From assembly GCF_000234095.1 (NCBI RefSeq), contig NZ_JH376798.1:153424-217423 (forward strand): a stretch of 64,000 nt of DNA, given 5' to 3'. The notes under the pieces are model-generated. The model searched no databases and was not told the DNA's origin. It saw only the letters and a program-made list of their open reading frames with translations. This DNA is from Centipeda infelix ATCC 43532. Lineage in GTDB: Bacteria > Bacillota > Negativicutes > Selenomonadales > Selenomonadaceae. Position numbers and translations under genes: made by a program. Below, in pieces: positions 661-45,147 of the stretch; position 1 is the stretch's first letter; each line of letters opens with the position of its first letter.

Positions 661-701
661 TCTCATGCTTCCACAAAATAATCGAAAGGCAGGTGATCTT
701 C

Positions 702-1997
702 ATGCCCGAGGAGGTTCGCGCAATCCAGTGCCGCAGCTGCGGCGGAGCGATGTACTCGGATCAGAAGGCGGCGGCATATGTCTGTGCGTTCTGCGGCACG
801 TCGGTTCCGTGGACGAACGAGCAGGTCTTTTGGTCGTCGCCGATCACGTTCCGTCACAAGCCCGTACAGATCGTGGACGGGGCGATGAAGCTCGGCCATG
901 TGGAGGTGATGACGGAGGTCGACCCACACGATGCGCGGGTTCTCAGTCAAAAATACCGCCAAAACAGTGTCGCGGGCAAGCTCGCGCTCTGGGACGAGAC
1001 GACGACGGCAGCGTTCGCAGGGGTCTGCCGCCTAACGTTCATATGCCCGTTCTGCGGCGGCGAGTTCACGGGCGAGTCAACGCAGCATTTCTTTACGTGC
1101 GGCTACTGCAGCAATACATTCGAGGACGAGCAGCTCGTACGCCCCGGCGGCTATCGGCGGGAATTCATCATGGGGGTTGGCGCGGAGAATATCCCCGAAA
1201 AGGCGATTCCGTTCTCTGTCACGATGACGCAGGCGCAGAATGCCGCACGGGTGCTCGCGCAGCAGTTTCCGCAGGAGTTCGCGGGGCAGGACATCGAGCG
1301 GCGCATCCGCGCGGAGATGGCGGCGGTCTACATCCCGTTCTCACTTGCCGATCTCAGTGTCAAGATGTCCACGCACAGCAATCGCGGTGATTTCGAGGCG
1401 TACGAAGAGATCGTCAACTGGGCGTGCCCCGATACGACACTCTATGACATCCACCTGCTCGATCGGCTCGACCCGTGGGATTTCGGCGCGGTGATTCCAT
1501 TCGATCCCGCCTTTGCCGAGGGGATCTTCCGCGTTGCGGCGACGGCAAACAACGCCTCACGCGCGGATGTGATCGACAATCTCCTCGCGGAGCGGCTCGT
1601 CACCGACCTAAAGGATGCATTCGGGCTGACGAAAGCGGAGATCATGCTCTGGGGGCAGGATTTCCGCAAGCACAAGAGCGCAACCTTCCTCCTGCCCGTC
1701 TACTATCTGGATCGGCGCGCAGAGGACGGTGAAAACGCACGGCAGGTACGCATCGCGGTGAACGGACAGACGGGCAAGGCAGCCGCACTGTTCTATCAAT
1801 ACGGGCGGGAGGAACGGTACGTCTCGCGTGCACCGTCTCACCCGAAGGCGATGTCGACGGAGCACACGGTGCGCACGCCGCCCGTTGCGGTCAAACGCGT
1901 CGGCTCGCCGTTCCTGCACCGCGTCCTTCCGCTCGATCAGGTGCTGCAGAAATCGTTCGGACAGCGTCTGCGCGGGCTGTTCGGATTCGGTTCCTGA
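702..1997 (+). CDS. Zinc-ribbon protein related to the YdjG-like family
   Basis: The protein has 431 residues. Four CxxC pairs form two zinc ribbons at the N-terminus (Cys10/13 with Cys28/31, and Cys115/118 with Cys133/136). The C-terminal third holds a PVYYLDRR segment and VNGQTGKAAAL, the same motif (MNGQTGK) seen in the three YdjG-like proteins at 11812, 13895 and 16339. It lacks their clear C-terminal membrane helix. Start ATG 702 was chosen over GTG 693 because AGGTG lies 6 bases before it. Databases often name this group TFIIB-type zinc ribbon or PriA-like, but no helicase motifs are present. The role is unknown. It has its own operator-type promoter. Confidence 0.75.
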   Translation: MPEEVRAIQCRSCGGAMYSDQKAAAYVCAFCGTSVPWTNEQVFWSSPITFRHKPVQIVDGAMKLGHVEVMTEVDPHDARVLSQKYRQNSVAGKLALWDETTTAAFAGVCRLTFICPFCGGEFTGESTQHFFTCGYCSNTFEDEQLVRPGGYRREFIMGVGAENIPEKAIPFSVTMTQAQNAARVLAQQFPQEFAGQDIERRIRAEMAAVYIPFSLADLSVKMSTHSNRGDFEAYEEIVNWACPDTTLYDIHLLDRLDPWDFGAVIPFDPAFAEGIFRVAATANNASRADVIDNLLAERLVTDLKDAFGLTKAEIMLWGQDFRKHKSATFLLPVYYLDRRAEDGENARQVRIAVNGQTGKAAALFYQYGREERYVSRAPSHPKAMSTEHTVRTPPVAVKRVGSPFLHRVLPLDQVLQKSFGQRLRGLFGFGS

Positions 1998-2816: not shown

Positions 2817-3182
2817 TCACATCCTCTGCCACTCGGTAAAGCGGAAGGCTCGCGCACCACCACCGACATCCACGCCGCTGTAGTAGTCATCGTAGTAGCC
2901 ATACTCCTCAAGGTAGTCCCGCACGGCGATGTTGCCCGTGTAGACATCGATCCGCCCGCTCGGCAGTGCGCTGCGGAACTCGCTGACCGCCGACGACGGT
3001 GAGCTCGGCTCGTACATCGTGATCGTGCTGCCGCTCTTGACGAAGATTGCAAACTTGCCCGCCTTCACATGGTTCTGGAAGTCGCTCTGACTGATTGTCC
3101 CGTGCCACATCGCCAGTGTCACGGAGGACATCGCCAGCATCAGCGTGAAGACCAGTGCCATCACTTTAGCTGCCCGTTTCAT
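2817..3182 (-). CDS. Small exported protein, unknown function
   Basis: The protein has 121 residues starting at ATG 3182 after AAAGGAGATGATGT. The signal peptide is MKRAAKVMALVFTLMLAMSS with cleavage near TLA-MWH. The mature part is about 97 residues, rich in Gly, Ser and Tyr (EEYGYYDDYYSGVDVGGG), and has no cysteine. No family is recognised. It is transcribed divergently from the DUF3298-like gene at 3412. Each promoter has its own copy of the CTGTCAT-N2-ATGACAG operator. Confidence 0.7.
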   Translation of the reverse strand: MKRAAKVMALVFTLMLAMSSVTLAMWHGTISQSDFQNHVKAGKFAIFVKSGSTITMYEPSSPSSAVSEFRSALPSGRIDVYTGNIAVRDYLEEYGYYDDYYSGVDVGGGARAFRFTEWQRM

Positions 3183-3246: not shown

Positions 3247-3291
3247 ATTATAGTCGAAATGATTCGGAGAGTGTACTGTCATAAATGACAG
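3247..3291 (-). promoter_or_regulatory. Palindromic operator plus -10 promoter, copy 2 (leftward)
   Basis: The core CTGTCAT-AA-ATGACAG lies at 3276-3291. Reading leftward, exactly 23 bp separate it from a consensus TATAAT (minus strand of 3247-3252). This drives the exported protein at 2817-3182. Confidence 0.65.
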
Positions 3292-3314: not shown

Positions 3315-3361
3315 ACCTGTCATTTGTGACAGGTCACAGCGCACTATTTTCATGTTAAGAT
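3315..3361 (+). promoter_or_regulatory. Palindromic operator plus extended -10 promoter, copy 3 (rightward)
   Basis: The 20-mer at 3315-3334 has core CTGTCAT-TT-GTGACAG (3317-3332). After 23 bp comes TG-T-TAAGAT (TAAGAT at 3356-3361). It drives the gene at 3412 and lies back to back with copy 2. Confidence 0.65.
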
Positions 3362-3411: not shown

Positions 3412-4269
3412 ATGCATACCAAAACGTTTCTATCCGCCCTCCTGTCCGCGCTCCTCCTCTGTGCGCCTCTCTCGGCAGCAGAAGGTGTCCTGAATGACCG
3501 AACGGAGGAGCACACACGGCCGCCACAGTCTCTGGAGAACGTGCAGGACATGGCGGCGCGGGACTGGTCACGCTCCGTAGAACCCCCTGTCTCGTGGCTC
3601 ACGGTCGAGGATCATGTCCTGACGGTCTACGACACAAACGAGGTCAAGGCTTACCGCGCCGTCTATCCCGAGATTGCGCTCGTGGATGATGACATCTCAC
3701 CGCTGGCAAAGGCATTTAGAGAGTGGTCTTCGGAACAGAGCATGGGCGCATGGCACAGCTCGATCCGTACCGCCAGCGAGGAAGTGCGCAGGGACGGGTA
3801 CGAGCTCCCCTTCTATTACAGCGATATCACGCCCATCTCGCGGTGGGGACGGGTGGATGAGCAGCTCGTCTCGTTCTTTATGGAGGGGTCATCGTATGCG
3901 GGCGGCGCGCATCCCATCGCCCATGTCGATGCGTATACCTTTGATCGGAAAACGGGGCGGCAAATCGCGCTCGATGAGATTGTCACGAACCGAACGCTCC
4001 TGATCGCCGCCATCGAGGCGGCATTCCAAACGCAGTATCCCGCAGCAGTGGAGCGGGATTTCCCGCACGGTATCATGGAGGCACTGCTCATGCAGCATCC
4101 GGCAGAGAAGGGGCTTTCGTCGTTCTGCTGGTACATGGCAGCCGACGGGAGTCTCGTGATCTACTACCCGGACTCCGTGCTCGCCTCCTACGCAGCGGGT
4201 GCATTCACCCTCACGATTACACGGCAGGATGCACCGCGCCTCTTTACGGCGGCGTATCCGATGGAATAG
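3412..4269 (+). CDS. Exported DUF3298 (RsiV-like) domain protein
   Basis: The protein has 285 residues with a signal peptide (MHTKTFLSALLSALLLCAPLSAA). The C-terminal half carries the DUF3298 signature: SSYAGGAHPIAHVDAYTFD, followed by a TGRQIALDEI segment. The N-terminal half probably corresponds to DUF4163. These domains occur in RsiV-type lysozyme-sensing anti-sigma factors and in PdaC-like envelope proteins. Here there is a cleavable signal and no membrane anchor, so it is probably a soluble periplasmic protein. AAGGAGGAA precedes ATG 3412. The specific role is unknown. Confidence 0.8.
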   Translation: MHTKTFLSALLSALLLCAPLSAAEGVLNDRTEEHTRPPQSLENVQDMAARDWSRSVEPPVSWLTVEDHVLTVYDTNEVKAYRAVYPEIALVDDDISPLAKAFREWSSEQSMGAWHSSIRTASEEVRRDGYELPFYYSDITPISRWGRVDEQLVSFFMEGSSYAGGAHPIAHVDAYTFDRKTGRQIALDEIVTNRTLLIAAIEAAFQTQYPAAVERDFPHGIMEALLMQHPAEKGLSSFCWYMAADGSLVIYYPDSVLASYAAGAFTLTITRQDAPRLFTAAYPME

Positions 4270-4331: not shown

Positions 4332-5489
4332 TCAAAAATACGCCGTCAAACTCATTCCGAGCACTTTCTGCCGTGCGCCGTCAAAGGTACGCCCCATAAA
4401 GAGCGACGTGCCGGAGCGGGCGGGGCGCAGGTCGAAGCCCTCGACGGCGAGTGCAACGCCGCGCGCAAGGACGATGTCGGCACGCGCCCCCCAACCGCGG
4501 AATCCCGCACGTCCGAAGAAGGTCGGATCGCCGTCCATCGCGTGATGGAGATACGTCGCACGCGGCTGATGATAGTAGGCGATCCACGCGCCGTAGTCGC
4601 CCGCCTTCTCCACATCGGGCGAGGGGCGCAGACGCAGCGTCGCCACATACCCGTGTCCCTCGTCGTCATAGCGGTCGAGATCGGTCTCTGCGCACCCGTG
4701 CAGGTACTCGACCTCGATGCTGCGATATCGATCAAACCGATAACCTGCGAAGAGTTCGAGGATGCGCTGATGGTCGATGCCGTTGTGGAGGGCAAGCGGG
4801 TCTTTCATCGCCCGCTCCCGTGTGACGGCGGGCAGCTCCGTCTCCATATCGTAGTAGAACGCGCCGCCCATCCACTTCGCCCGGTTCCGCTCATAGCCGA
4901 GGATGACGCCGCGTTTCCGTTTGTCTCCCGTCGGCGCGACGGTGCGCCCGTAGAAGATGGAGGTCATCCCAACACTCTTGTCGCCGTACCGCCAGCGTAC
5001 ACCCTCGACGCGCTTGTCGAAGACGTTGCCCTCGATCGGGGTGAAGATGAATCTGCCCGCGCGGATCTTCGCGCCATGTCCGTTCTCGTGTTCGGTGTAG
5101 AGGCGCGAGAGGTAGAGATGGTGGTCATTCCGATGTGCGCCCGCGATCGTGTCCTTGTCATAGCGGATGTCCTCAAGCATCCCACTGACGCTCCACCCGC
5201 CGCCCAGGTGAGCGGTCGGCGCAATGCGGAAGCGACGTGTGGAGAGGAATACGTCCCGCTGCTGATGCACGGAGGGAAGCTCCATGCGTGCCTTGCCGTA
5301 GAGCCAGCGGTAGTCGCCCCAGAACTCGAAGCGCGGTGTTTTCTCGACGTTCGCTGTGTCCATGCGCTGCTCTTCCGGTGTGCTCTGCTCCGCCGCGTCA
5401 GGCGGCAGTGCGGCAGCTGCGGCGGGCACGGCACAGGAAAGGGATGCGCCCATGAGCGCGAGGGGAACAAGGTGTTGGATGTGTCGCAC
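4332..5489 (-). CDS. Outer-membrane beta-barrel (porin-like) protein
   Basis: The protein has 385 residues from a GTG start at 5489, which lies 5 bases after GGAGGA. The upstream in-frame ATG at 5516 has no such site. The signal peptide runs to about AAAALP. The mature protein shows alternating aromatic strands typical of a barrel (FEFWGDYRWLYGKARM, GGAFYYDMETEL, ILELFAGYRFDRYRSIEVEYLHG). It ends in LTAYF, the C-terminal Phe recognised by the BAM machinery. No SLH domain is present, unlike OmpM at 56979. The substrate is unknown. An outer membrane in this organism is implied. Confidence 0.8.
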   Translation of the reverse strand: MRHIQHLVPLALMGASLSCAVPAAAAALPPDAAEQSTPEEQRMDTANVEKTPRFEFWGDYRWLYGKARMELPSVHQQRDVFLSTRRFRIAPTAHLGGGWSVSGMLEDIRYDKDTIAGAHRNDHHLYLSRLYTEHENGHGAKIRAGRFIFTPIEGNVFDKRVEGVRWRYGDKSVGMTSIFYGRTVAPTGDKRKRGVILGYERNRAKWMGGAFYYDMETELPAVTRERAMKDPLALHNGIDHQRILELFAGYRFDRYRSIEVEYLHGCAETDLDRYDDEGHGYVATLRLRPSPDVEKAGDYGAWIAYYHQPRATYLHHAMDGDPTFFGRAGFRGWGARADIVLARGVALAVEGFDLRPARSGTSLFMGRTFDGARQKVLGMSLTAYF

Positions 5490-5694
5490 GGTGTCCTCCG
5501 TTCTGATCGTGCCCAATCGGGCAGAAATTGTTTTGTCGCAAAACTGGGTTCATTCTACCATGAAACAAGTTAATTCACAAGAAATCACAGAAAACACCCC
5601 GTAAATTGTTCTAACTTCTTAGCTAATAGGACTTTTCGCGCAAGGAATTTTATACGTTTCAAACGAAATAATATAAATAGAGGGAGGTGCGGCG

Positions 5695-8163
5695 ATGGAA
5701 CGACTGCGATCATTGTCCCTGTTTTCGCTCTGTCTGCTCGTCATGGTCTGCCTCCTTCTCCCTGCCGCGCGTGCGGATGCGCTCACACTCGGCTATGACC
5801 GCAACTATGGCACGGCGTATGTCAACATCCTGCGCCGCGCGAGCATGGAACCGATGGAGATATTGGGATGTACGCACAAGCGTCTCGAACTGTTCCAGGA
5901 TCGCCGCGTGGATGCAATCGAAGTCTACGATTTCGAGGCGGAGCGGTTTCAGCGCGGAACATCGGAGCCGCTGTACTGGTATCCACATTTCACGGCGACT
6001 GTCGTGTTCGCCGTGCCCGAGGGTACTCCCGTGCCTGTGACACACTGGGCGGATCTTCGGCAGAATGTCACGGTCGTCCTGCCCGACAAATCACCTGAGC
6101 GTGAGATCTTTTTCCTCGCGCTCGCACAGCGCATCGCTCCCGATCTCGATGCTTCGTTTGCACAACTCGCGCGTATGCAGGAGATGGGAACGCTCCGTTT
6201 GTATCCCTTGCACCGAGGCGTTCGCGGACTTTTTGCCGAGAGGGGGGAGCACGATGTCTATGTGCTCTTTGCCCACGAGGCAGACCGTCTCATTCGGCGC
6301 GGCGCACGCCTCACGATTGTCACCCCTGTGGATGGGACCCTCTCGTTCACAAAGGGGCTGCTCTCGCGCACGCCGCTCACATTTTCCGATGCGCTGTTCG
6401 AGGAGCTGGCGGCGGCAGGCTACCCCCCACCCGCAGATATCCTCCCCGCGCGCGCGGTGCCGCCCGATTTTCTCCTCTCCCTGCGTGTAGCAAACACACG
6501 CTACCACACGGAGATCCGACAGCGCCCCCTCCTCGCGCCGTCGGAGCCGCATGAGCGGTTCATCATCCTCGTCCTCACCCTCATTGTGACGGTTGTCTGG
6601 GGAATGACGTTCCGGCAGCGCGTGCTCCACCACGGAGCGCGGCGGGCCGTTCTCCTTCTCATCGCCATGCTCCTGCTCTGGGAACTCGACCGCATGGCAA
6701 AGATTCTCACGTTCACGCACGACGAGGCATTCGAACGCCTCCTCTGGTATCTCTACTATGTGTTTCGCGGCGGGCTCTCGGTGGCACTGCTCTGGATCGC
6801 ATGGGCATCGGATGAGGACGTGCTGGAACGCACAATGCCGCCGTGGCTCAAGGCAGTCTTCGGCGTCAATCTCTTTCTCGCTGTGCTCATTCTCTGCAAC
6901 GATCTGCATCATCAATTTTTCTACTTCACATGGAGTACGGAGACGATGGAGTGGTCGGAGCACATGGCGTGGGGCACGTATGCCTACTGGACGCTCTGGT
7001 TCTCCGAGATCTTCGCCGCGCTCCTGCTCCTCCTCGAAAAGGCGAAGGCGCAGCAGGTTCTGCGAAATACGATGATACTCCCGTTTGCGCTGTTTTTCGC
7101 CTTCATCGTGTACTCGATCGCCTATCAGTTGATTGCGTGGGTGCAATGGGCGGAGCTGACATCGGTGACGGCACTGTTCTTCCTGCTGCTCATCGAGCTC
7201 TGTATGCGCACGGGGCTGATGCCGTCGAACCGTCTGCATCAAAAGTTCTTCACGCACTCGCGGCTCGCGATGCAGCTCACGGATGCGGCAGGCACGCCCG
7301 TCTTCGTCTCAGCGGCGCGGACGCGTGCACCGCAGCGTGACATCCGCACCTCGCGCATGGAGGTGGACGGCGGCGCGCTCCTCTGGCAGGAGGATCTCTC
7401 TCTCCTGCACGAGCAGAAACGGCGGCTCACACTGACCCGTGACGCACTCCTGCGTGCACAGAGTGTCCTGCGGGAGGAGCACACGATCCGAAAGCGGCTT
7501 CTCAGGCTCACGCTTCGCCGTCAGCTCTCGGAGGAACTGGAGGCGATCCTCGCGGCAAAACGTCCGCTCCTGCGTGCCTTCCGCGAGCAGCTGATGGCGA
7601 CGGACGACGAGGCGGCGGTCACGCTGCTGATCCGTCGGCTCAACCTGCTCTCCTCCTATCTCAAAAAGCGCTGCGTACTCTTCCTCAAGGGACAGGAGGA
7701 CGGCTACATCCGTGCCGACGAGCTCTCGATGGCGGTCTCGGAGACGTGCACCTACCTGCGTCCGCTCGGACTGCATGTAGGCGTGGAATGGGCACAGCAA
7801 AAACCGCTTCCGGAGGCGGATGCGCTTGCCCTGTTTGACTTCTTCGCGGAGTTTCTGGCACGCGCCGCGCGGGAGAAAACAACGGATGTATTTTGCCGTT
7901 TCGCGGACGGTACGCTCACGTTCCTGCTCGAACCGGCGGACTGGATCGCACCGTGGACGGCAGACTGGCAGGCGCGGCACGCGGTACGGATCGCCCTCGC
8001 CGACCGTGGCTATGCGCTCTCTCTGCGTGTCCGCCCCGCAGAGACGGAGAAAACCGCTGCTGCAGATAATGCGGCGACGTGCGCGGCAGCGGGCGGCGAT
8101 GCCCGTGCACAGGCATGCGAACCGCGCGCGGGGGAGACGGAGGGTTCTTCATGGAACGACTGA
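5695..8163 (+). CDS. Membrane sensor: periplasmic binding-protein-like domain, 7TM region, degenerate kinase-like tail
   Basis: The protein has 822 residues. A signal/anchor helix (1-28) is followed by a periplasmic domain of about 250 residues resembling PhnD/NMT1-type binding proteins (LTLGYDRNYGTAYVNILRRA, RVDAIEVYDFEAERFQ). Seven hydrophobic helices then run from about 287 to 510 and contain LCNDLHHQFF, typical of the HisKA_7TM region. A coiled coil (about 555-620) leads into a cytosolic tail that lacks a recognisable phospho-acceptor His and the N/G1 boxes of an ATPase. It is probably a receptor that cannot phosphorylate by itself. Its stop overlaps the start of the histidine kinase gene by 13 bases, so the two are translationally coupled. 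Confidence 0.8.
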   Translation: MERLRSLSLFSLCLLVMVCLLLPAARADALTLGYDRNYGTAYVNILRRASMEPMEILGCTHKRLELFQDRRVDAIEVYDFEAERFQRGTSEPLYWYPHFTATVVFAVPEGTPVPVTHWADLRQNVTVVLPDKSPEREIFFLALAQRIAPDLDASFAQLARMQEMGTLRLYPLHRGVRGLFAERGEHDVYVLFAHEADRLIRRGARLTIVTPVDGTLSFTKGLLSRTPLTFSDALFEELAAAGYPPPADILPARAVPPDFLLSLRVANTRYHTEIRQRPLLAPSEPHERFIILVLTLIVTVVWGMTFRQRVLHHGARRAVLLLIAMLLLWELDRMAKILTFTHDEAFERLLWYLYYVFRGGLSVALLWIAWASDEDVLERTMPPWLKAVFGVNLFLAVLILCNDLHHQFFYFTWSTETMEWSEHMAWGTYAYWTLWFSEIFAALLLLLEKAKAQQVLRNTMILPFALFFAFIVYSIAYQLIAWVQWAELTSVTALFFLLLIELCMRTGLMPSNRLHQKFFTHSRLAMQLTDAAGTPVFVSAARTRAPQRDIRTSRMEVDGGALLWQEDLSLLHEQKRRLTLTRDALLRAQSVLREEHTIRKRLLRLTLRRQLSEELEAILAAKRPLLRAFREQLMATDDEAAVTLLIRRLNLLSSYLKKRCVLFLKGQEDGYIRADELSMAVSETCTYLRPLGLHVGVEWAQQKPLPEADALALFDFFAEFLARAAREKTTDVFCRFADGTLTFLLEPADWIAPWTADWQARHAVRIALADRGYALSLRVRPAETEKTAAADNAATCAAAGGDARAQACEPRAGETEGSSWND

Positions 8164-9542
8164 GTGCATACGGCTATGAGACGATCCTCGCCCTCGTTCT
8201 CTTCGCAAATCTCGTCCTCATCGCACAGACGGCGATTCTCTGCCGCAGCATCGCAAACCTCCCGCAGCGCCGCATCCATCATGCCCTGCCGGATACGGCG
8301 GCACTGCTCCTCGCGCTCTATATGACGCTTCTCCTCGGCGGCAGCTGGAGTCTCATCCGCATGGAGCTGCCGCCCGATGAGTGGCTCCTGCCACAGCGTT
8401 GGGCAGTGGGCATCGCAGCGATCGTGATCGGATGCACCGCCTGTGAGCGCAGACTCGTCCCCTCGCTGCTGCTCATCGGGGGGGGCGTGCTCTCCCTGCC
8501 TCCGCTGGACAGGCTGCTCCCGATGAGTGCACTGCTCGTCCTCGGGATGCTGACGGCGCGGCTCCTATTCCTCGCCGCGCGTACACAGCGGCAGCGCAGC
8601 CGTGCCGTAACCGCCGCCTCCATCCGCGCGGGGCTGGATCTCATGCCCGACGGGCTGCTCTTTGCCCGTGCGGACCACAGTGCCGTGCTCGTCAACATCG
8701 CCATGCTGCATTTCATGGAACGGCTCTGTGGACGGCAGTATCGGAATGCGGCGGTGTTCTGGCGGGATCTGTTGGCGTTTGATGCGCCCGCTGTGGCAGA
8801 AAAGGAACTGCGCGAGGATGCCGTCCTGTTCCGCTTTGCCGCCGGCGACGTGTGGCTCGTGCAGCGCGTACAGCTCGCGGGTGATCTGGACGGCTGGCAG
8901 CTGACCGCCTCCTGTGTGACGGAGCTGGATGCCGTCACGCGCGAGCTCGCGGCGAAAAACGAAGCCCTCACGAACATGATCGGCGCGCAGAAGGATCTGC
9001 TCGCGCGATTCGAAAAGGCGGAGCGTCACCGCGCCCTCCACGAGATTACCTCGCGCGTGCACGACATCCTCGGCCAGCGCATCAGTATGCTCCAGCAGCT
9101 GCTCGCGAGTGCCGCGCCGAAGGACGCACTGGATACGATCGTACGGATCGACAGCCTCCTCGAGTCGGTACCGCTCGCACAGGAGGCACATCCCGCAACA
9201 CTGCTCGCCGATATGACGGACACCTATCGGCGGCTCGGCATCCGCATTGCGCTCACAGGCGAGCTGCCGCGCAACCTGCGGCGTGCACGCGCCTTTGCCG
9301 CCATCATCCGCGAGGCACTCAGCAACGCTGTCTGTCACGGGCGCGCGAACGAGATCCGCATCACACTCACGGAGCGACGGCTGCGTGTCTCGGACAACGG
9401 CATCGGCTGCACGACGCTCCGTCCCGGCGGCGGGCTCACAGGAATGATCCGCCGCATGAACGAACTCGGCGGGCGGCTCATCATCACCCACACACCGCAT
9501 TTTGAACTCGATGCACAGATAGGGGAAAAACAGGATGATTAA
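8151..9542 (+). CDS. Membrane histidine kinase, HisKA_3 (NarX/LiaS/DesK) type
   Basis: The protein has 463 residues. ATG 8151 follows GGAGGG and overlaps the receptor gene. About five membrane helices fill residues 8-143. A PAS-like linker and coiled coil lead to the HisKA_3 box RVHDILGQ with the phospho-acceptor His304. The HATPase domain shows an N box (REALSNAVCHG), a G1 box (VSDNGIG) and a GGLTGMIRRM box. Kinases of this class pair with NarL/LuxR-type regulators, and one starts 8 bases before this gene's stop. The stimulus is unknown and presumably comes through the preceding receptor. Confidence 0.9.
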   Translation: MERLSAYGYETILALVLFANLVLIAQTAILCRSIANLPQRRIHHALPDTAALLLALYMTLLLGGSWSLIRMELPPDEWLLPQRWAVGIAAIVIGCTACERRLVPSLLLIGGGVLSLPPLDRLLPMSALLVLGMLTARLLFLAARTQRQRSRAVTAASIRAGLDLMPDGLLFARADHSAVLVNIAMLHFMERLCGRQYRNAAVFWRDLLAFDAPAVAEKELREDAVLFRFAAGDVWLVQRVQLAGDLDGWQLTASCVTELDAVTRELAAKNEALTNMIGAQKDLLARFEKAERHRALHEITSRVHDILGQRISMLQQLLASAAPKDALDTIVRIDSLLESVPLAQEAHPATLLADMTDTYRRLGIRIALTGELPRNLRRARAFAAIIREALSNAVCHGRANEIRITLTERRLRVSDNGIGCTTLRPGGGLTGMIRRMNELGGRLIITHTPHFELDAQIGEKQDD

Positions 9543-10155
9543 AATTCTTCTCGTGGACGATCAGAAAATACTGCTCGAAGGCCTCGTCAAGATCCTCGCC
9601 CCCCTCGATGACATCAAGGTTGTCGGCACCTGCACTCTCTCGGAGCTGGCAGAGGAGGCGTGCATACGCCTTGCCCCCGACCTCGTTCTCATGGACATCT
9701 GCATGGAGGGACGCACGAGCGGCATTCAGATCTGTACGCGGCTCAAGAAGCAGTTTCCAAACCTGCGCATCGTCCTCATGACGGGCATGCAGGAGGTCGC
9801 CTTTCTTGAGTGGGCAAAGGACGCGGGCGCGGACAGCTTCATCTACAAGGAGTCCTCGAGCGAGGCATTCGCCGACTGCATCCGCGCCACCATGGAGGGT
9901 AGACGGATCTACCCGAGCGCAGCCGCCGGATGTGCACTCGGCGGCACGGACAACCCACTCACGGAGCGCGAACTCGCCATCCTGCAGCGCATCTGCCGCA
10001 ACATGAACTATGACGAAATCGCCGCCGAGCTCGGCATCACGAAGCGCACCGTCAACTTCCACATTGGCAATATGCTCGCCAAGACGGGCTACAAGAGCAT
10101 CGTCGGTCTCGCCGTCGAGGCGACCGAGCGCGGCTACGCAGGCAGCGCCCCCTAA
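9535..10155 (+). CDS. NarL/FixJ-family response regulator
   Basis: The protein has 206 residues. The receiver domain has the acidic pair Asp9/Asp10, the phosphorylation site Asp54 (LVLMDICM), Thr84 of the MTG segment and the FIYKES lysine. The C-terminal LuxR-type HTH reads LTERELAIL, then YDEIAAELGITKRTVNFHI. It overlaps the kinase gene by 8 bases. DNA sites of this family are often short palindromes. The CTGTCAT-N2-ATGACAG element 70 bp downstream, which recurs at other promoters, is a natural candidate target. That link is inference. Confidence 0.92.
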   Translation: MIKILLVDDQKILLEGLVKILAPLDDIKVVGTCTLSELAEEACIRLAPDLVLMDICMEGRTSGIQICTRLKKQFPNLRIVLMTGMQEVAFLEWAKDAGADSFIYKESSSEAFADCIRATMEGRRIYPSAAAGCALGGTDNPLTERELAILQRICRNMNYDEIAAELGITKRTVNFHIGNMLAKTGYKSIVGLAVEATERGYAGSAP

Positions 10156-10166
10156 TGTGTCGTTTT

Positions 10167-10195
10167 CCCGCGCATAGTGGAGGCGGGGTTATTTT
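10167..10195 (+). terminator. Possible weak terminator after the response regulator
   Basis: CCCGC and GCGGG can pair around a loop of 11 bases, followed by TTATTTTT. The stem is short. Confidence 0.35.
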
Positions 10196-10221
10196 TCCTG
10201 CTTTTTCAATTTTTTCGTCCA

Positions 10222-10267
10222 ACCTGTCATTTATGACAGTGCACTTTTCCATGCAATATGATAAAAT
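10222..10267 (+). promoter_or_regulatory. Palindromic operator plus extended -10 promoter, copy 4
   Basis: The core CTGTCAT-TT-ATGACAG lies at 10224-10239, followed after 22 bp by TG-A-TAAAAT (TAAAAT at 10262-10267). It is the only clear promoter before the SPFH/zinc-ribbon/TPM operon. Confidence 0.65.
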
Positions 10268-10317: not shown

Positions 10318-11745
10318 ATGGGACTCATCCAAGCAGCAGTCGGCTCTGTGGGCGGGGTTCTTGCCGATCAGTGGAAAGAATACTTCTACTGCGACAGCCT
10401 CGACAAGGACTCCCTCGTCGCAAAGGGACAGAAGCGCGTCAGCGGCCGCAGCTCGAACACGAGCGCAACGGACAACATCATCTCGAACGGCTCCGTCATC
10501 GCCGTCAACGAAGGACAGTGCATGATCATCGTCGAGCAGGGCAAGGTCGTCGAGATCTGTGCCGAGCCTGGCGCATTCACGTACGACAGCTCCACCGAGC
10601 CGACGGTCTTCGGCGGTGATCTCGCGAACGACCTCGTGTCCGTGTTCAAGAATATCGGAAAGCGTTTCACGTTCGGCGGCGACGCACCGAAGGATCAGCG
10701 CATCTACTATTTCAATACGAAAGAAATCATGGGCAACAAGTACGGGACGGCGCAGTCCATCCAGTTTGAGACCATGATCGGCCAGTACATGCTGAACGTC
10801 AACATCCGCTGCTTCGGCGAGTACAGCTACCGCATCACGAATCCGATCCTCTTCTACACAAACGTCTGCGGCAACGTCGAGGGCGTGTATGAGCGCAGCG
10901 AGATCGACTCGCAGCTCAAGAGCGAACTGCTGACCGCGCTGCAGCCGACGTTCGGGCGGATCGCAGCGAAGGGCATCCGCTATACGCAGCTCATCAACTA
11001 CACGAAGGACATCCGGAACGAGCTGTCCGAGGAACTCTCCGACGAGTGGGGCAAGCGGCGCGGCATCGAGATCGTCTCCTTCGGTGTGTCGAGCGTCAAG
11101 GCAGACGAGGAGGACGAGAAGCGCATCAAGGAGATCCAGGACAGCGCCATCATGAGCGATCCGAACCTGCGTGCAGGTCGTCTCGCAGGCGCCACGGCAG
11201 ATGCCATGCGCACCGCCGCCGGCAACGAGGCGGGCATGGGCGGCGCGTTCGGCTTCATGGGTATGGGTATGGCAGGAAACGCCGGCATGAGTGCCATGGG
11301 CGCGTTTGGTCCGCAGGGCGGTGCTGCCCCGCAGGGCAATCCGCTCGCAGGAGGTGCAGCAGGCGGCGGCATGGCAGCAGGCGGTGCGGCGGCAGGATGG
11401 ACGTGCGGCTGCGGACAGAGCGGCAACACGGGCAAATTCTGCGCCGGCTGCGGCAAGCCAAAGCCGGCACCTGCGGCAGGATGGACCTGCCCCTGCGGGC
11501 ACACGGGCAATACGGGCAAGTTCTGCGCCGAGTGCGGCAAACCACAGCCGTCCGCCGAGGGATGGAGCTGCTCCTGCGGCACGATGAATCAGGGCAAGTT
11601 CTGCGCGAACTGCGGCAAGCCGAAACCGGCGGACGCACCGCTCTACGCGTGCGACAAGTGCGGCTGGAAACCCGACGATCCCACCCACCCGCCGAAGTTC
11701 TGCCCGCAGTGCGGCGATGTCTTTGACGAGAACGATAAGCAGTAA
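10318..11745 (+). CDS. SPFH-domain protein with C-terminal zinc ribbons (YdjI-like)
   Basis: The protein has 475 residues. Residues 1-290 match the SPFH/band-7 type of the B. subtilis YdjI group (GLIQAAVGSVGGVLADQWKE, PGAFTYDSSTEP, FETMIGQYMLNVNIRCFGEYSYRI). A Gly/Ala/Met-rich linker follows. The tail carries four zinc ribbons: three near-repeats of W-x-C-x-CG, then GKFCxxCGKP, and one YACDKCGW with FCPQCGD. There is no N-terminal membrane helix, so membrane contact is probably peripheral or through partners. AAAGGAGGAAAA precedes ATG 10318. It heads an operon with YdjG- and YdjH-like partners, the arrangement known from the B. subtilis ydjFGHI membrane-stress operon, but the PspA gene (ydjF) is absent here. 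Confidence 0.88.
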   Translation: MGLIQAAVGSVGGVLADQWKEYFYCDSLDKDSLVAKGQKRVSGRSSNTSATDNIISNGSVIAVNEGQCMIIVEQGKVVEICAEPGAFTYDSSTEPTVFGGDLANDLVSVFKNIGKRFTFGGDAPKDQRIYYFNTKEIMGNKYGTAQSIQFETMIGQYMLNVNIRCFGEYSYRITNPILFYTNVCGNVEGVYERSEIDSQLKSELLTALQPTFGRIAAKGIRYTQLINYTKDIRNELSEELSDEWGKRRGIEIVSFGVSSVKADEEDEKRIKEIQDSAIMSDPNLRAGRLAGATADAMRTAAGNEAGMGGAFGFMGMGMAGNAGMSAMGAFGPQGGAAPQGNPLAGGAAGGGMAAGGAAAGWTCGCGQSGNTGKFCAGCGKPKPAPAAGWTCPCGHTGNTGKFCAECGKPQPSAEGWSCSCGTMNQGKFCANCGKPKPADAPLYACDKCGWKPDDPTHPPKFCPQCGDVFDENDKQ

Positions 11746-11811
11746 TTACGCAGCCAAGCGTTCACGCAGGACGCACACCACACTGTTATCATCGTAAAAG
11801 AGGTGACTGAT

Positions 11812-12930
11812 ATGGCAGACACGAGCGTCAGCTACAAATGCCCCAACTGCGGCGCGCCCCTCTCCTTCCTCCCGGGGCACGACCACGTAACCTGCGAGTA
11901 CTGCAACACAGAGCTCGACGTTGCAACCGTCGAAAAGCTCTTTCAAAAAGCGCAGGAAAAGGCAGCGCTTGCCGCCGAGGCGAAGGAATCGAAGTGGAAC
12001 ACCGATAGCGCGGGCAGCGAATGGGACAGTGCCGAGGCGGAGACAATGAAGGTGCAGACCTGCTCCTCCTGCGGCGCGGAGCTCGTCTCCGACGGCAACA
12101 CGATGGCGACCGAGTGCGCCTACTGTGGCAGTCCGAACATGATCCCGAGCCAGTTCGGCGGAATGCTGCGCCCCGACTACGTCATCCCGTTCCAAAAGAC
12201 GAAGCAGGATGCCATCGCCGCCCTCAAGGAGTTTTACAGCGAGGGCCTCAGGAAATACATCCTCCCGACCGCGTTTACCTCCGAGAACCGCATCAAGGAA
12301 ATCCAGTCCATGTACGTCCCCTTCTGGCTGTTCGACTCAAAGGTACGCGCAAGCGCGACCTTCCACGCCGAGAACGACAGCGTGCACGAGACTTCGGACG
12401 AGATCATCACCGAGACCAGCCACTACAGCTGCGACCGCAGCGGCTCCATGGCATTCGAGCGCATCCCCGTCGACGGCAGCGAGCGCATGGACGACAAGTA
12501 CATGGAGAGCATCGAGCCGTTCGACTACAGCGAACTCGTCCCCTTCTCCGCCGCCTACTTCACAGGCCACATCGCGGACAAATACGACGTGGATGCCGAG
12601 GCGAGCGTCCCCCGCGCGGATAAACGCGTACACGAGAGCGCCGTCGGCGTACTCGAAGGCACGGTCACAGGCTATGACCGCTGCTCCCTCGACGGCGAGG
12701 CGAGCGTCATCAAGGAGGACGGCACCGTCAGCTACGCGATGGCACCCGTCTGGATCCTCACGACGAAATATCACGAGAAGCCCTACACCTTTATGATGAA
12801 CGGACAGACCGGCAAGGTTGTCGGCTCCGTCCCCATCGACCGTGCAAAGGTACTTCTCTACTCCATCATCCCCGCCATCGTCAGCATCCCCATTTTCTAC
12901 TACCTCGCGAAATTCGTCTTGTCGGACTAG
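11812..12930 (+). CDS. Zinc-ribbon membrane protein, YdjG-like, copy 1
   Basis: The protein has 372 residues. Zinc ribbon 1 uses Cys10/13 and Cys28/31, and zinc ribbon 2 uses Cys84/87 and Cys102/105. A helical, charged segment lies between them. The core contains IKEIQSMYVPFWLFD and KPYTFMMNGQTGKVVG. One membrane helix (about 348-368) ends the protein with a short tail, which suggests a tail-anchored protein with its ribbons in the cytosol. ATG 11812 after AGAGGTGA was preferred to GTG 11803. It is about 60-70% similar by eye to the copies at 13895 and 16339. In B. subtilis the equivalent pair YdjG/YdjH sits beside the SPFH protein YdjI. The molecular function is unknown. Confidence 0.85.
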   Translation: MADTSVSYKCPNCGAPLSFLPGHDHVTCEYCNTELDVATVEKLFQKAQEKAALAAEAKESKWNTDSAGSEWDSAEAETMKVQTCSSCGAELVSDGNTMATECAYCGSPNMIPSQFGGMLRPDYVIPFQKTKQDAIAALKEFYSEGLRKYILPTAFTSENRIKEIQSMYVPFWLFDSKVRASATFHAENDSVHETSDEIITETSHYSCDRSGSMAFERIPVDGSERMDDKYMESIEPFDYSELVPFSAAYFTGHIADKYDVDAEASVPRADKRVHESAVGVLEGTVTGYDRCSLDGEASVIKEDGTVSYAMAPVWILTTKYHEKPYTFMMNGQTGKVVGSVPIDRAKVLLYSIIPAIVSIPIFYYLAKFVLSD

Positions 12931-12946
12931 GGTAGGAGGTGCAGCT

Positions 12947-13786
12947 ATGTTTACCAAAAATAAAAAGAGCCTCAGCGCACTCTTCGCCATCCTGCTCCTC
13001 TGCCTGACCTCCATCGCCCTCGCCGTGCCGCGTCAGGCAGCCCCGCCGCCGAAGGCACAGACACAGGAACAGATCATCGGGGCAGACCGCGTCGTCGACG
13101 AGGCAGATATTCTCACGGACAGCGAGGAAGCCGCACTTGACACCAAGCTCGCCGCCATCGAGCAGTCACACAAGGTACGCATCCTGATCGGCACGATGAA
13201 GAGCACAGACGGCATCGTGCTCGGAAAGATCGCGAACAACATCGTCGACGAAATCAGCGGCGATGCCGACAGTGGCACCATCGTCCTCCTCCTCTCGATG
13301 AAGGAGCGTGACTGGTACATCTCCACCGATAACAAGATGCGCGTACGCATCACAGATACCAAGGGCGTGGAATACCTCTCGGGCGAATTTCTCCCCGAGC
13401 TCAAGGAGAACAAGTACGCCGCCGCATTCACGACATTTGCGGCGACCACGGACGAGATGCTGACCTATTACGAGAAGGAAGGCGAGCCATACGATCCCGC
13501 GAACGCCTTTAACCTCATGGCACTCGGCATCGCCCTCGCGTGTGCGCTCATTCTCGGCGGCACCATCTACTATATGCTGTACGAGTATGAGAGCAACGTC
13601 ACCTTTGCAGCGGAGGCGGATGCCTACCTGAACCGCGACAGCTTCCGGCTCACGCAGAACGAGGACAACTTCCTCTACACCACCGTCACGCGCCAGACCA
13701 AGGAAAAGAAGGAATCCTCCTCCGGCTCCAATGTCAGCACCTCTAGCAGCAACAGCAGCCACGGCGGCGGCGGCGGGAAGTTCTGA
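12947..13786 (+). CDS. TPM-domain membrane protein, YdjH-like, copy 1
   Basis: The protein has 279 residues. A signal peptide (to about LALAVP) is followed by one TPM domain (VVDEADILTDSEEAALDTKL, VRILIGTMKS, DSGTIVLLLSMKERDWYISTD in parts). A membrane helix (about 186-208) comes next, then a cytosolic tail ending in a Ser-rich stretch and HGGGGGKF. The Ser-rich, poly-Gly end is common in TPM/YgcG proteins. The TPM domain would lie outside the cytoplasmic membrane. It follows the YdjG-like gene by 16 bases after TAGGAGGT, so they are probably co-translated partners. Confidence 0.85.
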   Translation: MFTKNKKSLSALFAILLLCLTSIALAVPRQAAPPPKAQTQEQIIGADRVVDEADILTDSEEAALDTKLAAIEQSHKVRILIGTMKSTDGIVLGKIANNIVDEISGDADSGTIVLLLSMKERDWYISTDNKMRVRITDTKGVEYLSGEFLPELKENKYAAAFTTFAATTDEMLTYYEKEGEPYDPANAFNLMALGIALACALILGGTIYYMLYEYESNVTFAAEADAYLNRDSFRLTQNEDNFLYTTVTRQTKEKKESSSGSNVSTSSSNSSHGGGGGKF

Positions 13787-13797
13787 TGTACGCCCCA

Positions 13798-13850
13798 GTC
13801 TCCCCTGCCGCAGCGGGGGAGGGGGACCGCTTGCGGTGGTGGGAGCGCCT
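13798..13850. repeat. Double-hairpin dispersed repeat, copy 1
   Basis: CTCCCCTGCCGCAGCGGGGGAG forms the first hairpin in two half-arms, and ACCGCTTGCGGT the second, followed by GGTGGGAGCGCCT. Two other copies lie at 36130-36180 and 41321-41370. It sits inside the operon between two YdjG/YdjH units, where it could affect RNA stability. Confidence 0.6.
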
Positions 13851-13894
13851 TGAACGAATGGGCAAACATGACATAAGCAAAGCGAGGTAACACC

Positions 13895-15007
13895 ATGCCC
13901 GACACAAGCGTCAGCTACAAATGTCCCAAATGCGGTGCCCCGCTCACCTTCCTCCCGGGGCACAATCATGTGACCTGCGCGTTCTGCGATGCCAAGATCA
14001 GCATTGCCGAGATGGATGCCCTCTATGCACAGAAAGAGGAGCAGGCGGCACAGGCGGCAGAAAAAGAAGAAGCGCAGTGGAACACCGAGAATGCAGGCAG
14101 CGCATGGGACGGAGCCGAAACGGCGAACATGATGATCCAGACCTGCTCCTCCTGCGGCGCGGAACTCGTCTCCGACGGCAACACGATGGCGACCGAGTGC
14201 GCCTACTGCGGCAGCCCGAACATGATCCCGCGCCGCTTCGACGGCATGCTGCGCCCCGACTATGTCATTCCATTCAAGAAGACAAAGGAGGACGCCATCG
14301 CCGCACTCAAGGAGTTCTACAAAGGGAAAAAACTGCTCCCGAAGGCGTTCCGCGACGAGAACCGCATCAAGGAGATCCAGTCCATGTACGTCCCCTTCTG
14401 GCTCTTCGACGCGCAGGTAAGCGCCAGCATGGACTTCAGCGCGGAAACGAGGAGTCGGCGCGATACGGCAGACGAGATCATCATCGAGACCAGCCACTAC
14501 CGCTGCGAGCGCAGCGGCGAGATGACGTTCCGCGGCATCCCCGTCGACGCGAGCAAACGCCTGGACGACAAGTACATGGACAGCATCGAGCCGTTCGACT
14601 ATAGCGAGCTCCGCCCCTTCTCCGCTGCGTATTTCACGGGACACCTCGCCGACAAATTCGATGTCGATGTCAAGGAATCCCTGCCGCGCGCCGACACGCG
14701 CCTCACGGCGAGCGTCATCCACGCGCTGAGCAAAACCGTCAGCGGCTATACCAGCACCGCTCCGAGCGGCAGCTCGAAGATCCATAAGGAGGCAGGCGAC
14801 GTCCGCTACGCCATGATGCCCGTCTGGATCCTCACCACGAACTACAAGGGCAAGCCCTACACCTTCATGATGAACGGACAGACCGGAAAATTCGTCGGCT
14901 CGGATCTGCCCAAGGACACATTCAAGGAGTACGTCTACCCGCTCATCCCGTCCGCGCTCGTCTTCGCCGTCCTCTTCTGGCTCGGTCGGCTCATGTTTAA
15001 CTTGTAG
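13895..15007 (+). CDS. Zinc-ribbon membrane protein, YdjG-like, copy 2
   Basis: The protein has 370 residues and the same plan as the copy at 11812: two zinc ribbons (YKCPKCG with CAFC, and CSSCG with CAYCG), the motifs YVPFWLFD and MMNGQTGK, and a C-terminal membrane helix (about 345-365). GAGGTAA precedes ATG 13895. It is closer to copy 3 (16339) than to copy 1, for example in CDAKISIAEMDAL. This suggests that the second and third units arose by a later duplication. Its stop is 12 bases before the tandem-TPM gene. Confidence 0.85.
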   Translation: MPDTSVSYKCPKCGAPLTFLPGHNHVTCAFCDAKISIAEMDALYAQKEEQAAQAAEKEEAQWNTENAGSAWDGAETANMMIQTCSSCGAELVSDGNTMATECAYCGSPNMIPRRFDGMLRPDYVIPFKKTKEDAIAALKEFYKGKKLLPKAFRDENRIKEIQSMYVPFWLFDAQVSASMDFSAETRSRRDTADEIIIETSHYRCERSGEMTFRGIPVDASKRLDDKYMDSIEPFDYSELRPFSAAYFTGHLADKFDVDVKESLPRADTRLTASVIHALSKTVSGYTSTAPSGSSKIHKEAGDVRYAMMPVWILTTNYKGKPYTFMMNGQTGKFVGSDLPKDTFKEYVYPLIPSALVFAVLFWLGRLMFNL

Positions 15008-15019
15008 GAGGTGCGGCAC

Positions 15020-16330
15020 ATGATGAACGAAATGAAATATGGACGCAGCACACTCCTCGCCCTGCTCCTCCTCTGCCTCAGCATTTTCATCCTCGCCGTA
15101 CCAAAGGCGGCGGATGCCTCAGGCATCGGAAACGCACGCGTCATCGACGAGATGAACCTCCTCTCCGATGCCGAGGTACAAAGGCTCGATGCGCAGCTCG
15201 CGGCAGTGGAACGGACACACCGCATCCGCATCCTCGCGGCAATCGTCGGTGATTGGAAGGACAAGCCGCTGAAGCCGCTCGCGGAGAACATCATCAAGAC
15301 CATCGCCCCCGGTGGTGAACATGGCGCAGTCCTGCTCCTCCTTTCGCCCGAAAACAACACCTACTACGTCGCCACCGATGCAAAGCTCAGGACACGCATT
15401 ACCGACGAGGGCATTGAGCACCTCACGGAGAAATTCCTGCCCGCCTTCGAGAGCAAGAAATATGCCGATATGTTCACGGCATTTGGTCAAGTCGCGGGCG
15501 AAATGCTCACCTACTACGAGAAGGAAGGCAAGCCCTTCACCACGGGCGGCGCACTCAGTGCCGTTGCGCGTGCAGTCGCGGCCGGGGGGACACAGACAGG
15601 GGATGCAGGACTGGGTGCTGTGCGCGTGATCGACGAGTCCGACCTCATCACCGATGCCGAGGAGCAGGCACTCGACGCGAAGCTCGCCGCATATGAACAG
15701 GCGCACGGCATCCGCATCCTCGTCGGCACGGTCAAAAACACGCACAAACAGGTGCTCGGCAAAGTTGCCAATGCTGTCGTCGACCGCATTGTGGACGGCG
15801 GCGCAAACGGCACCATCGTCCTCCTCCTCGCACCGAAGGAGCGCGACTTCTACATCTCCACTGACAACAAGATGCGCGTGCGCATCACCGACGACAGAGG
15901 CATCGAACACCTCGCCGACAAGTTCGTCCCCTCCCTGAAGGAGAACAAATACGCCGAGGGATTCACCGCATTTGCCGCCGCCGTGGATGAGATGGTGACC
16001 TACTACGAGAAGGAAGGAAAGCCCTTCAACCCCGATGCCTTCCTGCTCACCATCGTCACCCTCGTCGGTGCGCTGATCCCTGCTGCCATCGTTTACTGGT
16101 TCATCCTTGCCAATCTCTCGGACAGCATGTTCAGTGTCCGAAGTGCCCACGAGGCAGACGACTACGTCGAGCGCGGCAGCTTCCGCCTCACACACAAAGA
16201 GGACGTCTTCCTCCGCACCACAGAGTCCCGTGAGACGAAGCACAAGGAGACATCATCATCCTCCTCGGGTTCCTACATCTCCACCTCCAGCCGCGACGAA
16301 AGCCACGGCGGCGGCGGCGGGAAATACTAG
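15020..16330 (+). CDS. Tandem-TPM membrane protein, YdjH-like, copy 2 (duplicated domain)
   Basis: The protein has 436 residues, about 160 more than its paralogues, because it has two TPM domains. A signal peptide is followed by domain 1 (ARVIDEMNLLSDAE through YADMFTAFG, about 30-165) and domain 2 (VRVIDESDLITDAEEQALD through YAEGFTAFAA, about 195-330). A membrane helix (about 343-365) and the Ser-rich HGGGGGKY tail follow. Domain 2 resembles the single TPM domain of the gene at 17464 more than domain 1 does. The 5' end (AGGAGGTGCGGCACATG) is almost identical to that of 17464. A short linker joins the domains with no leftover signal peptide. ATG 15020 was chosen by spacing. Confidence 0.85.
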   Translation: MMNEMKYGRSTLLALLLLCLSIFILAVPKAADASGIGNARVIDEMNLLSDAEVQRLDAQLAAVERTHRIRILAAIVGDWKDKPLKPLAENIIKTIAPGGEHGAVLLLLSPENNTYYVATDAKLRTRITDEGIEHLTEKFLPAFESKKYADMFTAFGQVAGEMLTYYEKEGKPFTTGGALSAVARAVAAGGTQTGDAGLGAVRVIDESDLITDAEEQALDAKLAAYEQAHGIRILVGTVKNTHKQVLGKVANAVVDRIVDGGANGTIVLLLAPKERDFYISTDNKMRVRITDDRGIEHLADKFVPSLKENKYAEGFTAFAAAVDEMVTYYEKEGKPFNPDAFLLTIVTLVGALIPAAIVYWFILANLSDSMFSVRSAHEADDYVERGSFRLTHKEDVFLRTTESRETKHKETSSSSSGSYISTSSRDESHGGGGGKY

Positions 16331-16338
16331 AGGTGCCC

Positions 16339-17451: not shown

Positions 17452-17463
17452 GAGGTGCGGCAC

Positions 17464-30617: not shown

Positions 30618-30618
30618 A

Positions 30619-35267: not shown

Positions 35268-35281
35268 AAAATAAAACCTCC

Positions 35282-44894: not shown

Positions 44895-45147
44895 TGAGTA
44901 TGAATATCATTACCTCAACTATGTGACGGGGCTCAGCACGGCGCGCTTCACGGATGCACGCTACCTGACGCTCGATCTCGGCGTGAACTATCATGTCTCG
45001 AAGGAGTTCAAGGTCTATCTCAAGGGCATCAACCTCACCGACGAGAGCTACGAATCCATCGGTGTCACACCATCCGCCTGGGTAACCATGGGTACGTATG
45101 CCATGCCGAGCCGCCACTTTATCCTCGGCGGAACGTACAACTTCTGA
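44881..45147 (+). pseudogene. C-terminal remnant of a TonB-dependent receptor
   Basis: The frame has no start codon with a ribosome site. It reads EYEYHYLNYVTGLSTARF, DARYLTLDLGVNYHVSKEF, VYLKGINLTDESYE and ends PSRHFILGGTYNF. Those are the last strands of an outer-membrane TonB receptor with its terminal Phe. About 600 upstream residues are missing. A deletion apparently fused the promoter area to the last 85 codons. Confidence 0.75.

Follow-up and report, generated by a model that had tools for sequence, protein, structure and literature searches.

A 64-kb stretch of the Centipeda infelix ATCC 43532 genome (contig NZ_JH376798.1, positions 153,424 to 217,423; hereafter the window, in which all positions are counted) carries on its + strand, at 5695-10155, overlapping genes for a membrane receptor, a sensor histidine kinase and a NarL-type response regulator. 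We propose that they probably form a three-component envelope-stress system gated by a pseudokinase, the receptor, which would switch on the adjacent SPFH/zinc-ribbon/TPM operon via a palindromic operator. The proposal builds on features computed directly, namely the anatomy of the locus, the loss of catalytic residues in the receptor, the conservation of the kinase, the co-inheritance of the genes, the palindrome regulon and the geometry of its promoters.

In the list of open reading frames (ORFs), the receptor gene (5695-8163, +; 822 aa) overlaps the kinase gene (8151-9542, +; 463 aa from the ATG at 8151) by 13 nt, and the latter overlaps the regulator gene (9535-10155, +; 206 aa) by 8 nt. 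The 13-nt overlap is kept in eight of nine receptor/kinase pairs of the genus, the window's own pair counted in. A preliminary description of this DNA had recognised here a three-part locus, with a receptor combining a binding-protein-like domain, seven helices and no recognisable kinase residues, a kinase with its own membrane domain and a NarL-type regulator. All of these points are borne out below.

Receptor fold and loss of catalytic positions

The AlphaFold model of the receptor, built on an 11-sequence alignment, has a mean predicted local distance difference test (pLDDT) score of 64.8. It comprises a signal or transmembrane (TM) segment, a binding-protein-like domain, a region of seven main helices between residues 284 and 506 (7TM), a small beta domain and a tail. 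The tail consists of long helices at 569-669 (569-635 and 639-669) and an alpha/beta domain at 674-781; blocks of ten residues average 81-91 from about residue 631 to 780. By this model alone, the tail is predicted to adopt a DHp-CA fold. A lobe at about 94-222 aligns in VIA with sulfate-binding SubI (6ddn_A; Z 11.3, root-mean-square deviation 3.2, 122 aligned residues). Foldseek places LOV-histidine kinases on top (4gcz, E 9.4e-5) and SubI fourth; against the multidomain model, the kinase matches have TM-scores of 0.12-0.24, and two matches in all reach E<=0.001. Structural matches of the 7TM part to G-protein-coupled and adiponectin receptors (VIA Z 11-13) were set aside, as the tool flags such rows as common for helical bundles. 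The binding domain points to no particular ligand, as it matches sulfate-type and other binding proteins with weak to moderate scores.

Sequence profiles give a similar picture. In Pfam and NCBIfam the window receptor has weak solute-binding matches alone, the best at E 0.0089 (SBP_bac_11, under the cut-off) and 0.0066. A Pfam scan of 16 diverse family members, the receptor and 15 homologues, called eight families at E<=0.1. HisKA_7TM (PF16927), a non-catalytic N-terminal region, was found in four of the 16 (best 3.1e-12; the window receptor is unmatched at E<=1), SBP_bac_6 in three and, weakly, CHASE9 in two. At the same threshold none of the 16 matched a catalytic kinase or histidine-kinase-type ATPase profile, so that the His/ATP site sought in the tail by profile search was not found. 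NCBIfam called five families in the same proteins, including lone matches such as shikimate kinase AroL (E 0.0049), which we read as chance.

Alignment extends this to the single residues. We compared 40 receptor ORFs, namely 39 longer than 350 aa and one fused ORF; truncated ORFs are included, as are both pieces of the split receptor of genome G040, one of which is out of frame in the tail part. Position 612, matched to the acceptor His by eye, holds Tyr in 16, Ser in nine, Phe in seven, Arg in four, His in one and other residues in three. A conserved acceptor His, Asn box or glycine box was found nowhere among the 40, and by sequence the receptor is a pseudokinase. The idea of a plain duplicate of the kinase was dropped on the same alignment, in which zero catalytic positions are conserved. 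Could the receptor still be an ordinary, diverged sensor kinase with some catalytic or phosphate-removing activity? The model gives its DHp-like and ATPase-like domains good confidence, and a basic segment in the second long helix, YLKKRC, shows strong conservation, with both K657 and K658 unchanged in 11 rows and K657 in 16 rows, which suggests that the tail is under selection. Against this stand the unconserved catalytic boxes, of which isolated patterns are all that is left in the 40 ORFs, the lack of a catalytic profile in all 16 proteins scanned, and a kinase with intact catalytic residues encoded next door. We therefore consider such an activity very improbable.

The binding domain is retained in all nine receptor copies of the genus. 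In genus g7, two of three receptors are whole without it (512 and 514 aa; the third is split into two frames), and in genus g31 four of six are whole and short (529-542 aa). The kinase and the association with SPFH persist in these relatives, most of which also have this type of palindrome. As the domain is missing from relatives with the same locus, we regard it as a module, and the 7TM pseudokinase with its kinase as the core. This raises the question whether the signal is chiefly a membrane state read by the seven helices, with the binding domain as an optional addition, rather than a ligand. The short receptors of g7 and g31 and the resemblance of many predicted targets to envelope proteins speak for it, while the retention of the domain throughout the genus and the SBP_bac_6 matches in three of 16 family members argue that the domain has a role; we see this as quite possible, if a little short of probable.

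Kinase and response regulator

The structure model of the kinase (mean pLDDT 74.7) shows about five N-terminal helices, predicted to span the membrane, followed by a PAS-like alpha/beta block, a DHp domain and an ATPase domain. Its catalytic residues are in place, with H304-D305 in the DHp domain (H-box RVHDILGQRI) and N392, D415/G417/G419 and G426/G428 in the ATPase domain. Across 37 aligned kinase ORFs, with each count restricted to the ORFs that have a letter in that column, X included, H304 is conserved in 36/36, N392 in 32/33, D415 in 27/32, G417 in 31/32, G419 in 26/33 and G428 in 32/33. Pfam HATPase_c matches 14 of 15 kinases at E<=0.01; the window kinase scores E 6e-5, under the family's cut-off. 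The preliminary assignment to HisKA_3 holds in part. The Pfam family HisKA_3 is matched by neither the window kinase nor any of the 15 kinases at E<=0.01. The H-box and the fold, with DesK and VraS among the structural matches of the model, nevertheless fit what we take to be a HisKA_3-type kinase. The best NCBIfam match is of UhpB type (E 1.7e-7, far under the cut-off).

The regulator matches Response_reg (3.7e-19) and GerE (1.8e-13) in Pfam, both over the cut-off, and D9, D54 and K105 are invariant in 19 sequences. With a phospho-Asp receiver and a LuxR-type helix-turn-helix, it is, as judged from these profiles and residues, a regulator of the NarL/FixJ type.

Conservation of the three-gene unit

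We searched sets of 14 genus, 189 family, 380 class and 398 phylum genomes. A receptor profile with the binding domain left out matches in 29 of the class genomes and in 11 of the phylum genomes (three of the latter already belong to the class set). At 37 of 39 receptor loci a same-strand kinase lies directly downstream, and the other two reach the contig end (37/37 with room); the order holds inside and outside the class. By hand count, a regulator match is present in 29 of the 30 loci whose downstream sequence extends for 1.9 kb or more, L155 being the miss. In g7 the regulator lies on the far side of a barrel-like gene.

Within the genus, receptor and regulator are present in the identical eight of 14 genomes. 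The SPFH gene is whole in these eight; in the other six it is in pieces in one and not found in five. Its sole homologue in a genus genome lacking the system, G026:C16:585864-586940, matches in three pieces, as if broken. In the class, SPFH occurs in 28 of 29 receptor-positive against 154 of 351 receptor-negative genomes (Fisher 8e-9, kinship ignored). By hand count, SPFH and receptor share a contig and stand no more than about 11 kb apart in 25 of the 29 receptor-positive genomes; the exceptions are G025, G028, G195 and G219. As SPFH is also present in many genomes without the system, other regulators of SPFH must exist.

Genome G035 carries two copies of the system about 8 kb apart (L062, L063), with receptors 64% and 60% identical to that of the window; downstream of the second copy come operators and a lipoprotein gene instead of SPFH. 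In G217, a single 1304-aa frame (L165:3275-7186) joins a zinc-ribbon protein like that at window 693-1997 to a receptor, possibly a case in which sensor and target-type protein have fused naturally.

The palindrome regulon

Downstream of the regulator gene, the 16-bp palindrome CTGTCATTTATGACAG at 10224-10239 is the predicted operator of the SPFH operon. It ends 78 bp before the SPFH gene and starts 68 bp past the regulator stop (gap 10156-10223), so the palindrome of the preliminary description stands while the 70 bp given there does not. With up to three mismatches, the pattern has nine strand-wise matches at five places in the window, against 0.18 expected, and six sites in the home genome give six predicted units. 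Allowing one mismatch, we count 4-8 palindromes per genome in the eight members of the genus that have the system, against 0-3 in the six that lack it; the reversed pattern gave no match in any of the 14. In the family, the exact palindrome is present in 9 of 11 receptor-positive but only 3 of 178 other genomes (Fisher 2e-11, kinship ignored; five genomes in which the binding domain alone was weakly matched were scored as negative).

According to the gene caller, 46 of the 53 palindromes in the eight genomes lie between genes and seven inside them; four of the seven are one site in a conserved gene that reads like purine biosynthesis. The genes past the palindromes encode SPFH, zinc-ribbon, TPM, DUF3298-like, lipoprotein, autotransporter-like and other proteins, several of these labels resting on sequence reading. 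A chance origin was set aside on the empty reversed-pattern control in every genome listed and on the seven genic matches, which lack the promoter spacing described below. A macro-domain-like gene near some palindromes was also dropped as a target, since the -10 element faces away from it at both sites.

Promoter geometry within and beyond the genus

At 41 of the 46 intergenic sites the hexamer of an extended -10 (TGnTAnnnT) lies exactly 22 or 23 nt past the palindrome on one side. In 1000 mononucleotide shuffles of the 92 flanks the mean was 0.34 and the largest value four, and none of the seven genic palindromes has such an element. A plainer -10 pattern at the same distance covers 45 of the 46 (no shuffle control); both this pattern and the CTGT-N8-ACAG rule used below were chosen after viewing receptor-positive sequences. 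At the SPFH operon, the -10 element TAAAAT (10262-10267, +) lies 22 nt past the operator, with its TG at 10259-10260. This spacing puts the palindrome centre near -42. Class II activators sit near -42.

The alternative is that the regulator represses by covering the -35 region and that the signal lifts this repression. A palindrome just upstream of, and touching, the -35 position is also a common repressor site. In addition, the best -35 at spacers of 16-18 in 45 promoters has a mean score of 3.11, above all 500 shuffles (mean 2.59, range 2.18-3.02); a weak -35 slightly better than shuffles remains, and activator dependence is not compelled. Yet the -35 never exceeds four of six consensus letters while the -10 is extended, as at promoters helped by an activator, and regulators of the NarL/LuxR type placed near -42 usually activate. 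Repression thus appears rather unlikely to us, and we keep activation as the working direction.

The palindrome changes its form between clades. It is CTGTCAT-N2-ATGACAG here and CTGT-N8-ACAG across families. In g7, TATACT stands 23 nt past the same 16-mer (G039) or decayed forms of it (G040, G041); g31 has CTGTACTTTAGTACAG, and g94 and g91 have CTGTAnTAAAnTACAG, with the -10 at 22-24 nt. Upstream of SPFH, palindrome and -10 geometry together were found at 19 of the 26 receptor-positive loci and at none of the 23 receptor-negative ones. Both groups were searched by the same rule, over at most 2.2 kb and less at contig or stretch ends. The positive loci come from 25 of the 28 receptor-positive class genomes with SPFH (G238, G242 and G343 left out, as was the second receptor copy of G324 on contig C136) and from G596 outside the class. 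The negative loci are those of 20 hand-picked genomes from 19 genera among the 154, plus G026, G140 and G141. That palindrome, -10 spacing and SPFH operon go with the three-gene system from genus to genus and from family to family is, as far as such comparison reaches, well supported, in keeping with the earlier suggestion that the neighbouring operon is the probable target.

Could the palindromes instead belong to another regulator, which the three-gene system merely neighbours? Two genomes point that way: two plausible palindromes persist in G031 without the system, and in G025 the SPFH operon and its palindrome lie about 190 kb away from it. On the other side, the palindrome tracks the system over the 14 genus and 189 family genomes, CTGT-N8-ACAG and the spacing stay even as the form shifts by clade, and the regulator is matched in 29 of 30 receptor loci with enough downstream sequence. 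Ownership by another regulator is thus quite improbable in our judgement. The G031 operators (L098, L099) stand before TPM-like and lipoprotein genes. In the second receptor copy of G326 (L164), a perfect palindrome, CTGTACTAAAGTACAG, at 4908-4923 is followed 22 nt on by TATACT and shortly precedes the receptor frame from 4966, which suggests autoregulation of that copy.

The target operon

The predicted target operon begins with an SPFH/band-7 protein with C-terminal zinc ribbons (10318-11745, +), YdjI-like, which matches PF13421 Band_7_1 (6.1e-17, over the cut-off) and DZR (0.004, under it). It continues on the + strand with three tandem zinc-ribbon/TPM pairs (11803-18297), whose copies are 49-63% identical to the first. 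The first pair consists of a YdjG-like zinc-ribbon protein (11812-12930 by gene call; DZR 2.9e-5, under the cut-off) and a YdjH-like TPM-domain protein (12947-13786, start by gene call; TPM_phosphatase 8e-20 on the longer ORF 12818-13783). The second combines a zinc-ribbon protein (13895-15007; 63% identity to copy 1) with a TPM-domain protein matched in two stretches (15020-16330; TPM_phosphatase 1.7e-37 on 15011-16327), and the third a zinc-ribbon protein (16339-17451; 61%) with a TPM-domain protein (17464-18297; 49%). In the stretches of other genus genomes the set varies from a lone zinc-ribbon gene (G034) to three pairs.

With PF13421 and TPM over the cut-off, and zinc-ribbon DZR matches under it, the operon has the composition of a YdjGHI-type module; PF13421 also matches the B. 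subtilis control. According to PMC8581546 and PMC11237479, the B. subtilis pspA-ydjGHI operon encodes a band-7 and zinc-ribbon protein, a double-zinc-ribbon TM protein and a TPM protein, and the ydjGHI products tether PspA to the membrane; the way in which YdjG/H sense the stimulus is called unclear (PMC8581546). PspA/IM30 was not found in the home genome at E<=0.001, a threshold at which nine of 14 control genomes match. Given a YdjGHI-like target and no PspA found, we read the locus as an envelope-stress system with a PspA-independent output. The comparison of genomes suggests that the three-gene system controls cell-envelope genes, which may help to maintain membranes.

Proposed mechanism

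We propose that the receptor is a seven-helix membrane pseudokinase, here equipped with an external binding-protein-like domain. It would pair with the adjacent true kinase through its DHp-like tail, perhaps also through the membrane helices, and alter the activity of the kinase, which would in turn phosphorylate the NarL-type regulator. A dimer of the phosphorylated regulator would then bind the 16-bp palindrome, centred about 42 bp upstream of the start, and aid RNA polymerase where the promoter combines an extended -10 with a weak -35 or none. In this way the YdjGHI-like SPFH/zinc-ribbon/TPM operon would be turned on together with exported proteins and lipoproteins. Four elements of this scheme are inferred, namely that receptor and kinase touch, that the regulator activates and does not repress, that the signal is envelope stress, and where transcription starts.

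Several observations weigh against this scheme. The Fisher values are inflated by shared ancestry, and SPFH is far wider spread than the system (182 of 380 class genomes). The first 100 receptor residues are poorly modelled, and the structure supports just one lobe of the binding domain well, which is a weak point. Isolated catalytic-like patterns occur in the 40 receptor tails (DxGxG in three, GxG[LMI] in five, an N-box-like pattern in one and H[DE] in two, one of the latter in the out-of-frame G040 piece), and one g7 receptor (L066) has a His at the aligned acceptor position. G031, a 150-contig assembly, keeps its two operators while receptor, regulator and SPFH were not found in it. The -35 scores above shuffles, as described. 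The palindrome rule fails at seven of the 26 positive SPFH loci (G040, G196, G345, G223, G217, G240 and G596); of these, G040 shows a decayed copy by eye and G596 is the sole locus outside the class that was examined. Finally, no palindrome was found between 3332 and 10224, and the system of the window is not visibly autoregulated.

More tentatively, the locus may stand for a widespread three-component class of the Bacillota, a wider claim to which we give slightly less than even weight. In such a class, a hetero-kinase would always depend on the 7TM pseudokinase as its sensing half, the external sensor domains would be exchangeable, the output would be a PspA-free SPFH/TPM membrane-maintenance module, and the palindrome would evolve with the lineage. 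Our searches of the openly licensed literature found no description of this system. The analysis names a likely regulator and regulon for the YdjGHI-like SPFH/TPM module where PspA was not found. The side-by-side receptor and kinase genes offer a natural family for studying the control of an active kinase by an inactive one, and the operator and promoter rule yields direct gene-by-gene predictions.

Other features of the window

Three further predicted operators lie upstream of the receptor gene, each with a -10 element at 23 nt by hand count and with a predicted target gene beside it. The first (CTGTCATATATGACAG, 597-612; -10 on the + side) is 80 bp upstream of the gene for a 434-aa zinc-ribbon protein (693-1997, +). 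The second (3276-3291; TATAAT on the - side) is 93 bp from the gene of a 121-aa protein (2817-3182, -). The third (3317-3332, one mismatch; -10 on the + side) is 79 bp upstream of a DUF3298-like gene (3412-4269, +; DUF3298 1.1e-4, under the cut-off). The last two products are exported by sequence reading. Between these genes and the receptor lies a candidate outer-membrane barrel gene (4332-5516, -), whose product ends in a C-terminal Phe and matches no Pfam family over the cut-off; in many loci such a gene adjoins the receptor or regulator gene.

Elsewhere in the window, three consecutive proteins of about 770-795 aa are encoded at 28230-35285 (-), the first with a P-loop-like GQYSAGK and perhaps dynamin-like. 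Two 585-aa paralogues with similar N-termini (39527-41284 and 42114-43871) are perhaps DXP synthases, and a 74-aa frame (44923-45147) looks like the last part of a TonB-dependent receptor and may be what is left of a gene; all three are sequence readings.

Comparison with known systems

RocA-CovS, UhpC-UhpB-UhpA and LiaFSR are the nearest working analogues of the locus, which we assign to none of them. The preliminary description had called the division of sensing and catalysis between two membrane proteins unusual. The arrangement itself holds, and its unusualness has to be qualified in view of RocA/CovS, DivL, RetS and UhpC/UhpB. The UhpC-UhpB-UhpA system of E. coli likewise combines a separate membrane sensor, a UhpB-type kinase and a NarL-type regulator. 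UhpC, however, is a transporter-like sensor and not a pseudokinase, and the output is sugar-phosphate uptake; the window receptor has no match to a transporter family (major facilitator superfamily, MFS) in Pfam or NCBIfam at E<=1. The other two analogues also have components of a different kind, as CovR is of the OmpR type and LiaF is not a pseudokinase.

In group A Streptococcus, the pseudokinase RocA modulates the separate membrane kinase CovS, and their contact was detected by co-immunoprecipitation, while a bacterial two-hybrid assay of the pair failed (PMC7028121). Compared by architecture, RocA resembles the window receptor as a multi-TM pseudokinase with DHp and CA-like domains that acts on a separate kinase; it differs in having six putative TM domains (a count given in a figure legend) and a predicted acceptor His that is present but dispensable (same source). 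The output of RocA-CovS is virulence genes, whereas here three genes overlap and the output would be an SPFH operon. DivL and RetS are likewise kinase-like proteins controlling another kinase, in other domain contexts and with other outputs, and the sections of PMC9491836 that describe them mention no SPFH link.

On the output side, the LiaFSR system of B. subtilis is similar in responding to envelope stress with an accessory membrane protein, a kinase and a response regulator. Its target includes a PspA homologue (PMC11237479), and PspA was not found here. The pspA-ydjGHI operon, in turn, is driven by sigma-W and works with PspA (PMC8581546, PMC11237479). The operon in the window would instead be read from a palindrome/-10 promoter tied to the three-gene system, and it carries three zinc-ribbon/TPM pairs.

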